In this document: one piece after another, positions 3,494-6,178 of the stretch
Position numbering within the stretch: the stretch's first letter is position 1
Layout: every line of letters starts with the position of its first letter
Virus record (IMG/VR): IMGVR_UViG_3300043331_000279
Span: 1 to 58,388 of that record
Source of the DNA: a virus
DNA: 58,388 bases
Reading direction: 5' to 3' (one strand)
The notes under the pieces: model-generated
Seen by the model: the letters and a program-made list of their open reading frames with translations, nothing else
The model's database searches: none
What the model was told of the DNA's origin: nothing
Translations under genes and position numbers: made by a program

Positions 3494-4378
3494 ATGGCAG
3501 GCAAGTGCTTCCCACTGGTCCGTGGCCGTGCCATGCGCGCCACGCGGCTCGATGGCTGCGGGAGGCTCGATCCGGGAGCGTGCTCGGCCATCGTCTCGGA
3601 TGGGTTCGTCTCCGTGGCGTTCACCGCCAACATCGACGAGGGCGAGGAAATCAACCTCACGAACGCCGCAGGGCGGACGTGCGTGAAGGACACCCCGACC
3701 CCCACCCTGACCGGGTACAGCCTCACGATCACCTTCTGCGAGGTGAACCCGGACCTGTACGCCATGCTGACCGGTCAGTCCACGGTGTTCGACGCCAATG
3801 GCGACGCGGTCGGCTTCCGGGTCAACGGCGACGTGGACGCCTCCTCCTCCGGCTTCGCGCTGGAGGTCTGGAGCAACGTTCCCGGCGTCGCCTGCGAGGC
3901 GGGGGCGGAGGGCTCGTTCGGCTACCTGCTGGTGCCGTTCGTCCAAGGCGGCGTGCTCGGCGACTTCACGCTGGAGAACGCTGCGGTCACCTTCACCCTC
4001 CAGAACGCCACCACCAAGTCCGGCTCGGGCTGGGGCAAGGGTCCGTACAACGTCGTCGAGCAGGAGGCCGGAGGTGCCGGGCCGCTGCTGGAGGACATCG
4101 CGTCCGGTGACTTCCTGCACGTCCAGTTGACCACGATCGCGCCACCCGACCCCGACTGCGAGTGCACCGCATCCGGTCCACCGGCCACCGGAGCCACCGC
4201 CGGGTCCCCCGGCACGTGGACCCCCGTGGACTCCTACCCGCCGGAGACGCTGCCCGAACTGGTCGCCGGGTCCGTGACGGCATCGCCCGCCACGGCATGG
4301 ACGGCCGGGCAGTACGTCGTCCTCGGGGACGGCAGCCACGCGAAGTGGAGCGGTACTGCATGGCAGGCGGCCACGTAG
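3494..4378 (+). CDS. Probable major tail protein
   Basis: 294 aa. It begins MAGKCFPLVRGRAMR and continues with a beta-rich domain containing INLTNAAGRTCVK, LTITFCEVNPDLYAMLTG and GSGWGKGPYNV. I recall this pattern from actinophage tail-tube proteins that follow the capsid gene. After a Gly/Thr/Pro linker (about residues 225-250) a short C-terminal module ends TAWTAGQYVVLGDGSHAKWS, resembling small carbohydrate-binding or surface modules. The tail role is inferred from recall and position. A strong hairpin follows the stop codon. Confidence 0.7.
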   Translation: MAGKCFPLVRGRAMRATRLDGCGRLDPGACSAIVSDGFVSVAFTANIDEGEEINLTNAAGRTCVKDTPTPTLTGYSLTITFCEVNPDLYAMLTGQSTVFDANGDAVGFRVNGDVDASSSGFALEVWSNVPGVACEAGAEGSFGYLLVPFVQGGVLGDFTLENAAVTFTLQNATTKSGSGWGKGPYNVVEQEAGGAGPLLEDIASGDFLHVQLTTIAPPDPDCECTASGPPATGATAGSPGTWTPVDSYPPETLPELVAGSVTASPATAWTAGQYVVLGDGSHAKWSGTAWQAAT

Positions 4379-4387
4379 CAAGGGCAC

Positions 4388-4422
4388 CTCTGGCCGGGGA
4401 GAGCAGCACTCCCCGGCCAGAG
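4388..4422 (+). terminator. Hairpin after tail-tube gene
   Basis: A perfect 13-bp stem (CTCTGGCCGGGGA / TCCCCGGCCAGAG) with a 9-nt loop just after the tail protein stop and before the HNH gene. No U-tract. It probably terminates or attenuates transcription of the abundant capsid/tail message. Confidence 0.6.
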
Positions 4423-4460
4423 TCCTGTGGGGCCTACCCTGATGGCGTCAGGAGGTCACG

Positions 4461-5048
4461 ATGAGCGTTCCCGCCCTGCCGGACTACTGTCCGTATACAC
4501 TCGACAATATGTGCTGCGATGGGTGCGGACGAGAGACGGACAAGACATGGCCTGCCAAGGACGGGACGGAAGGGCGCTGGTGCTCCCGCTGTGACGCCCG
4601 CTACCGGAGGCATGGTGACGTGAACCACACGGCGTTCAAGGAACGGACCGACTGTCGCATCTGCGGCGATCCGGGTTTGGTTGGCGACCTCTGCAACCGG
4701 CACTACCTTCGTGCGCTGCGTCACGGTGACCCCAAGGCTGGCGGCTCCGAGCGACGCGGCGTCCTCGCCAACGTCATCTACACCCAGCACGGCTGGGAAT
4801 GGGTAGGGGCAAAGCATCGGGTTCATGGGATCGTCTACGGCCGGTACAACCACGAGACCGCGCACCGGGTGATCTACCGGCTGTTCGTGGGTCCGATTCC
4901 TGCTGACGATGACTATGTTGTGGACCATCTGCCCGCCTGCCCAAAAACCTGCGTGACGCCAACCCACCTGCGACTGCTCCGGCGTGGTGACCACACCCGT
5001 CTTGGCTTCGCCAGAGGAGAGATTGGAGGTGGTCAGATATGGCAGTAG
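4461..5048 (+). CDS. HNH homing-type endonuclease
   Basis: 195 aa. Two Cys-pair zinc sites in the N-terminal half (CCDGCG, CSRCDARYRRHG, CRICGDPG, CNRHYLRALRHG) are followed by an HNH-like core, VVDHLPACPKTCVTPTHLRLL, ending in a DH pair. Free-standing nucleases of this build act as homing endonucleases in phages. Its 3' end overlaps the ATG (5039) of the head-tail adaptor reading frame. Its N-terminus (VPALPDYC, then MCCDGC) resembles the adaptor N-terminus (VAPLPDYC, then GCCPDF). This suggests it invaded the structural operon and captured or mimics the neighbouring 5' end. Confidence 0.8.
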   Translation: MSVPALPDYCPYTLDNMCCDGCGRETDKTWPAKDGTEGRWCSRCDARYRRHGDVNHTAFKERTDCRICGDPGLVGDLCNRHYLRALRHGDPKAGGSERRGVLANVIYTQHGWEWVGAKHRVHGIVYGRYNHETAHRVIYRLFVGPIPADDDYVVDHLPACPKTCVTPTHLRLLRRGDHTRLGFARGEIGGGQIWQ

Positions 5049-5083
5049 ACCCGGTTGCACCCCTTCCCGACTACTGCTGGTAG
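5039..5083 (+). other. 5' fragment of adaptor gene ending at an in-frame amber codon
   Basis: A good Shine-Dalgarno (TTGGAGG) precedes ATG 5039. Fourteen codons (MAVDPVAPLPDYCW) lead to TAG at 5081-5083. The frame then continues without a break into the adaptor (RPVDEGCCPDFG...). From recall, related adaptors read directly from DYCW into P-x-D, so TAG CGG looks like two extra codons. It could be a nonsense change, a programmed readthrough stop or a sequencing artefact. Confidence 0.6.
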
Positions 5084-5134
5084 CGGCCCGTCGACGAGGG
5101 GTGCTGCCCGGACTTCGGCACGCACCCGCTGGAG

Positions 5135-6178
5135 GTGCAGGACCGGGCGAAGGCCCTCGCCGCCCAGACGATGCGGGCGCTGACCGCCTACCGGGTCGGC
5201 GGCTGCCCGGTCACGGTGCGCCCCTGCAAGCGGGGCTGCGTGGAGGGCTCCGCGCACTGGCTGTGGACCGGGGTCACGTTCCGGCCGGTGGCGTGGGGCG
5301 GGCAGTGGGTCAACTCCTGCGGCTGCAACAGCACCTGCTCGTGCGGGCCGCTGGAGGAGATGGCGCTACCGGCCCCGGTGGGGCGCGTGGACAGGGTCCT
5401 CGTGGACGGACAGCCCCTCCCGGTCACCGCGTACCGGGTCGACAACGGGAACCGTCTGGTGCGGCTGGACGGGGGCCTGTGGCCGGTCTGCCAGAACATG
5501 GACAAGCCCGATACCGAGGTCGGCACCATGTCGGTGACGTACCTCAACGCCTACGCGGTCGACGGGCTCGGGGCGTACGCGGCCGGGGTGCTGGCGTGCG
5601 AGTACGCCAAGGCGTGCGCCGGTGCCAAGTGCCGCCTCCCCTCCGGGGTGACCGACATCGCCCGCCGGGGCATCTCCATGACCATCACGACCGGCCTGTT
5701 CCCGGACGGGGTGACCGGCATCCGCGAGGTGGACGCCTACATCCTCCGCTGGAACCCCAACGGCCTGCGGATGGCACCGCGCGTCTGGTCCCCGGACCAG
5801 CGCCCCATCCGGGTGGTCACCCCGCCCGCCCCCGCCCTGCTGCAAGCCCCGACCCAGCAGGACCTCCGGCTCCGGCAGGGGGACGACTACCACGGCACCA
5901 TCAGCGTCACCACCGCCGGTGGGGGACCGGCCAACCTGACCGGGTACACCGCGCTGGCCCAACTCCGCCGGGACGTGGCCGACGCCGACCCCACCGTGGA
6001 CGCCACGTTCACCACCTCCGTGACCGGGGACCAAGTCACCCTGTTCCTGCCGGGAGCCACCACGGCGACGCTCACCGGGGACTACGTGTGGGACGTCGAG
6101 GTGACCTCCGGGACCGGTGAGACGACCACCCTCATGTACGGGCGGGCACTGGTCGAGTCGCAGGTGAGCCGGGTATGA
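5135..6178 (+). CDS. Head-to-tail adaptor fused to a BppU-like C-terminal domain
   Basis: 347 aa from the first start codon after the amber stop (GTG 5135, poorly placed Shine-Dalgarno). The natural start is more likely ATG 5039, giving 379 codons with TAG at codon 15. The body (VGGCPVTVRPC, NSCGCNSTCSCGP, EVDAYILRWNPNGLR) fits actinophage head-to-tail connector proteins. From about residue 245 (LRLRQGDDYHG) a second domain has the pattern of BppU/receptor-binding N-terminal domains: LTGYTALAQLRRD, YVWDVEV and a final VSRV. Its fusion to a connector is unusual. The stop overlaps the next ATG. Confidence 0.65.
   Translation: MQDRAKALAAQTMRALTAYRVGGCPVTVRPCKRGCVEGSAHWLWTGVTFRPVAWGGQWVNSCGCNSTCSCGPLEEMALPAPVGRVDRVLVDGQPLPVTAYRVDNGNRLVRLDGGLWPVCQNMDKPDTEVGTMSVTYLNAYAVDGLGAYAAGVLACEYAKACAGAKCRLPSGVTDIARRGISMTITTGLFPDGVTGIREVDAYILRWNPNGLRMAPRVWSPDQRPIRVVTPPAPALLQAPTQQDLRLRQGDDYHGTISVTTAGGGPANLTGYTALAQLRRDVADADPTVDATFTTSVTGDQVTLFLPGATTATLTGDYVWDVEVTSGTGETTTLMYGRALVESQVSRV

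Follow-up and report, generated by a model that had tools for sequence, protein, structure and literature searches.

How can a phage carry an amber codon shortly after the start of its head-tail adaptor gene, and where did this codon come from? The question is raised by IMG/VR virus record IMGVR_UViG_3300043331_000279, which was analysed at its full length of 58,388 nucleotides (the window). The reading frame in question starts at ATG 5039, passes through 14 sense codons, meets TAG at 5081-5083 and then continues through 364 sense codons (5084-6175) to TGA 6176. A first-pass annotation of the same DNA had given the 14 codons correctly and had seen that the frame is open past TAG, but had put the length of the continuation at 365 sense codons. 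The following features are needed here:

5024..5031, + strand: SD sequence of ATG 5039, TGGAGGTG, spacing 7, -10.6 kcal/mol
5081..5086, + strand: six extra bases TAG CGG including the in-frame amber codon, a gap in 23/23 aligned relatives
5087..6178, + strand: body of the head-tail adaptor gene, open and of native composition (PHROG 783, PHROG 1084 / LtfC-like; GC3 0.96)
5135..5137, + strand: GTG, first possible restart past TAG, with GCTGGAG at zero spacing and no spaced SD

The adaptor frame and its relatives

The encoded protein is a PHROG 783 head-tail adaptor (E 5e-64). The good ribosome binding site that had been ascribed to ATG 5039 is indeed there, and its SD is strong compared with the gene median of -6.45 kcal/mol. 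For the structure model the TAG codon was entered as Gln, for folding only; the model has high confidence at residues 11-30, and the first long helix begins at residue 31. A solved structure for the adaptor, sought by sequence, was not found, and a fold search gave only weak matches to phage neck proteins. The C-terminal part of the protein (5849-6175) is a LtfC-like / PHROG 1084 domain, while most relatives stop at about 250-270 aa and do not have it.

One way around the amber codon would be a restart, where the 14-codon frame acts as a leader and the adaptor is reinitiated at GTG 5135, without the conserved W-P-x-D. The strong SD brings ribosomes to 5039, and the first predicted helix begins two residues before GTG 5135. 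Against this, GTG 5135 lies 51 nt past the stop and, as had been claimed before, lacks a spaced ribosome binding site, and the segment that would be lost is both conserved and confidently predicted; because of the high model confidence at residues 11-30, it looks structured. The further in-frame starts ATG 5171, GTG 5216 and GTG 5240 fall within the conserved core and have no good SD. We therefore find it rather improbable that the adaptor is made by restart.

Single-protein scans for near relatives of the adaptor and of the HNH protein encoded upstream gave none. With an alignment of three adaptors as the query, 56 IMG/VR loci and one bacterial MAG were retrieved. At the place of the TAG most of these relatives have W-P-[VI]-D or a near variant, and no stop, which agrees with the pattern "W then P-x-D" that had been given for homologues. 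The view that TAG CGG is inserted relative to homologues is confirmed by the 23/23 aligned relatives, in which the two codons fall in gap columns. In one relative (L051:2914-3120) the adaptor shows an apparent one-base frameshift at an early G run, which could be a sequencing error or a case of frameshifting.

It could be argued that TAG CGG is a consensus or assembly error, or that it belongs to a minority or dead variant of a defective genome, and that the working phage has an uninterrupted adaptor. The window is a single metagenome contig without reads, the interrupted gene is a virion gene, and the apparent one-base frameshift in the relative L051 indicates that flawed contigs occur. However, an in-frame insertion of six bases is atypical of short-read error, the remaining adaptor frame is open, and the structural genes examined look intact. 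We consider error or defect unlikely, though with an appreciable chance of being true.

An HNH gene and two adaptor-like 5' ends

The first-pass annotation overlooked the context of the amber codon, which borders an inserted HNH gene that itself seems to duplicate the 5' end of the adaptor gene. The features of this region are:

3494..4378, + strand: intact gene of the major tail protein, adjoining the insertion on its left (PHROG 792, E 2e-79)
4388..4422, + strand: terminator-like intergenic hairpin between the tail protein gene and the putative native adaptor start (17-nt inverted repeat, 94% complementary)
4461..5048, + strand: HNH endonuclease gene, 195 aa (PF13392 HNH_3, PHROG HNH families; GC3 0.72)
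4461..4490, + strand: copy A, adaptor-like 5' end MSVPALPDYC, now the start of the HNH gene, at the putative native adaptor start position
4501..4517, + strand: second repeat block, direct repeat D3, pairing with 5091-5107 (76%, spacing 590)
5039..5080, + strand: copy B, putative replacement 5' end of the adaptor gene, MAVDPVAPLPDYCW, adaptor-like but foreign in composition

The HNH gene scores 30.1 bits with PF13392 (HNH_3), above the cut-off, and its GC3 stands against 0.90 to 0.96 in the adjoining structural genes. All relatives lack an HNH gene at this place between the major tail protein, which is 44-62% identical with theirs, and the adaptor. Thus an HNH domain and presence here with absence at the same place in relatives, as expected for a free-standing HNH homing endonuclease, were both found. 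Within the HNH motif (4926-4970) the window reads CVTPTHL where CVNPxHL is expected, and at the position that is Thr here 79/79 related HNH proteins have Asn. This change makes the present HNH activity doubtful, and judged from the motif the enzyme may have lost its function and the cassette may be in decay.

The start of the HNH gene at 4461 corresponds to the position of the adaptor start in the relatives, behind the intergenic hairpin and an SD; GC-rich repeats comparable to this hairpin precede the adaptor start in relatives as well. Copy A is closest to the adaptor start MSTPALPTEC of locus L017, and when it was compared in register with adaptor starts only 2/2090 background ORF starts matched or beat it. 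The HNH start was missing from the matches of a profile of adaptor N-termini, because the profile leans on W-P-x-D, which is absent in copy A. Copy B is closest to PLPDPCW of Pam4. At the DNA level the two copies form a direct repeat (4467-4489 with 5054-5076, spacing 587), and together with D3 this gives collinear repeats flanking the C-W-P codons, where the only length change between the copies is found. The likeness of A and B is short; protein shuffles reach its score at p 0.0015 and DNA dinucleotide shuffles at p 0.00065. Both copies depart from the relatives at the C-W-P codons.

The composition of the adaptor gene changes abruptly at TAG, from a GC3 of 0.64 in the 14-codon head to 0.96 in the body. 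No 14-codon stretch elsewhere in the adaptor gene falls below 0.857, and only 1/78 gene starts has a GC3 as low as that of the head. Since 0.64 is close to the 0.72 of the HNH gene, the head groups with the HNH gene by composition.

A clean precedent in Gordonia phage Malisha

A similar arrangement is present in Gordonia phage Malisha (OP434458; L068:1414-2696), where the HNH gene 29 lies upstream of the lysin B gene. The HNH gene starts with MRVVKLRGAGESLGGRNMLSSIAGEDLP and the following lysin B gene with MTRVYKLRGAGEPLDGRNMLSSIPGHEV. The start of the HNH gene is 100% identical to lysin B of the phages Spooky and Squiddly, and the match of Malisha to Spooky stays exact between about locus position 500 and 1496, where it ends abruptly; Squiddly, like Spooky, is 100% identical as far as this break. 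The lysin B genes of Birdsong, Ecliptus and ODay come directly after the upstream gene. The second copy of the lysin B start in Malisha has 73% protein and 63% DNA identity over about 30 codons, and no DNA match to it was found elsewhere in 50,697 phage records; likewise, the window cassette has no DNA counterpart in other phage records. In Malisha, then, the cassette comprises an HNH body followed by an SD and a diverged substitute for the 5' end, and lysin B as rebuilt is open without a stop.

As appears to be the case in the window, the Malisha HNH gene opens with what is natively the 5' end of its downstream neighbour, and this neighbour has a diverged second 5' end with an SD of its own. 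The two cases differ in that the Malisha target is lysin B, that the duplication covers about 28 codons and is unmistakable, that the rebuilt gene has no stop whereas the window adaptor carries TAG 5081, and that near-identical empty-site phages (Spooky and Squiddly) exist for Malisha. As an independent case Malisha makes the cassette architecture in the window credible.

This cassette pattern is rare: of about 80 HNH loci surveyed, Malisha alone clearly stood out; the window, with a score of 39 and p 0.11 in this all-against-all survey, was not outstanding in a test made blunt by composition noise. No 5'-end copy was found in the HNH genes of Murai, DoctorDiddles, Flabslab and Sunshine924.

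Probable homing and the origin of the amber codon

We favour, somewhat more than not, the explanation that an HNH homing cassette with a replacement 5' end was inserted and that TAGCGG is a scar of its right junction, not an evolved recoding signal. The cassette would have entered the adaptor gene at its 5' end, and the leader and start of the adaptor would have passed to the HNH frame (copy A). The 3' end of the cassette would have supplied an SD and a foreign 14-codon 5' end (copy B), meant to rebuild the adaptor, and the right junction would have kept six extra bases, placing an amber codon after codon 14 of the rebuilt gene. TAGCGG may then be an insertion or repair scar at a likely homing site, a location suggested by both copies differing from the relatives at the C-W-P codons. 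Presumably homing caused the insertion, copy A is the native start and the junction gave rise to the scar, and we infer the junctions of the cassette because no empty-site genome was found for the lineage of the window.

Compared with what such a cassette should look like, the endonuclease gene does open with the 5' end of its target, on weak but supporting evidence, and a second 5' end of foreign character precedes the target body; the rebuilt target gene is not open, owing to TAG at 5081. Further points speak against the cassette reading: a start region may be low in GC for other reasons, and the changes at C-W-P in copy A itself are not explained by a simple right-junction scar alone. A possible alternative history is that the Tyr codon TAT in copy A marks the original codon at the TAG position, the stop being a later single change.

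Possible passage of the amber codon

Readthrough, suppression or restart had earlier been thought to be needed. The analysis did not bear this out, as no suppressor tRNA, no RNA structure above chance and no matched hop codons were found, and a junction scar is the simpler origin since TAG lies at the edge of the inserted HNH gene. A defective adaptor copy is possible also with such an origin, and we regard an efficient dedicated mechanism as less likely than a defective copy or readthrough or restart at a low level.

Reassignment of TAG was rejected, as TAG ends 13/78 predicted genes and is thus an ordinary stop in this genome. No tRNA, and hence no suppressor tRNA, was found in the window with ARAGORN. 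The conserved stop and stimulating 3' structure of programmed readthrough were not found, the relatives being without the stop and the downstream fold average (z -0.10). For bypass of the T4 gene 60 type, UGG before the gap and CGG at its end do not match; on the defining features tested the window is outside the gene 60 bypass class. An imperfect 30-nt inverted repeat surrounds TAG (5042-5119), with its arms in the 14-codon head and in the native gene. The hairpin has a z of -1.55, with 13/200 shuffles as good, and as all folds at TAG were within the shuffles no RNA stimulator was identified there.

Ribosomes might nevertheless pass the amber codon by readthrough, or by a six-base hop over the stop from UGG to CGG that restores W-P-V-D, with the insert shielding the homing site. 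A hop over TAGCGG would yield exactly the sequence of the relatives, an endonuclease gene lies just upstream of TAG, like mobA in T4 (PMC2988022, PMC5009743), copies A and B carry changes in the same codons, and the imperfect hairpin encloses TAG. However, the take-off and landing codons are mismatched, neither the hairpin nor the downstream fold exceeds what shuffling gives, 14 codons are too short for a nascent peptide like that of gene 60, and a suppressor tRNA is lacking in the window. Such passage appears quite improbable to us. More specifically, the endonuclease could have captured the target start together with a diverged 5' end, and a short stop-bearing insert at the target site could block cleavage while the ribosome passes, as a six-base natural analogue of the bypass in T4 gene 60; we hold this to be very unlikely.

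A self-splicing intron that joins TGT of copy A to CGG would give C-R-P-V-D and remove TAG from the mRNA. The TGT-CGG join is gapless, the U before and the G ending the removed part suit group I ends, and phage genes that are spliced and adjoin endonuclease genes have been described (PMC10448857). Still, no intron family (Rfam) was found in 4300-5400 even at E 10, or anywhere in the window, the HNH frame occupies nearly all of the 590-base insert, and an intron would have no need of the SD, start and Trp that copy B possesses. Splicing thus seems extremely unlikely.

Comparison with known systems

The proposed homing cassette with a junction scar can be compared with several described systems. 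In T4 the insert associated with mobA and gene 60 has been proposed to protect the target (PMC2988022, PMC5009743). Like the window, mobA with the 50-nt bypass of gene 60 combines an HNH endonuclease beside an interrupted essential gene with a stop within the interruption; it is the closest functional comparison. Introns in Tremella fuciformis mitochondria show N-terminal duplication of the target gene (PMC7315562), so that here, too, the mobile element carries a foreign N-terminal part of its target. The Tremella elements are predicted mitochondrial introns, whereas the window has a free-standing phage HNH gene without an intron signature; they are the closest architectural comparison outside phages. 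Free-standing phage HNH genes of the Mob type share with the window HNH_3, a sporadic presence and a place beside a conserved structural gene (PMC2988022), but differ in that the window gene has a copy of the target's 5' end at its start, carries a replacement and has Thr for Asn in the motif.

In a limited search of open-access literature the cassette design was not found for phages; it has been described for fungal mitochondrial introns. If our explanation is true, there are phage endonuclease genes that invade a gene for the virion or for lysis and bring along a diverged substitute for the part that they displace. This would be a natural home-and-rescue design, with Malisha as the clean case and the window as a flawed rebuild or one tolerated in translation.

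Finally, the ends of the contig (1-942 and 56819-58388 of the window) match different parts of PHROG 859. The two ends do not join exactly in frame, and, judged by their matches, the contig probably represents almost all of a circularly permuted genome, of which a small gap is missing.
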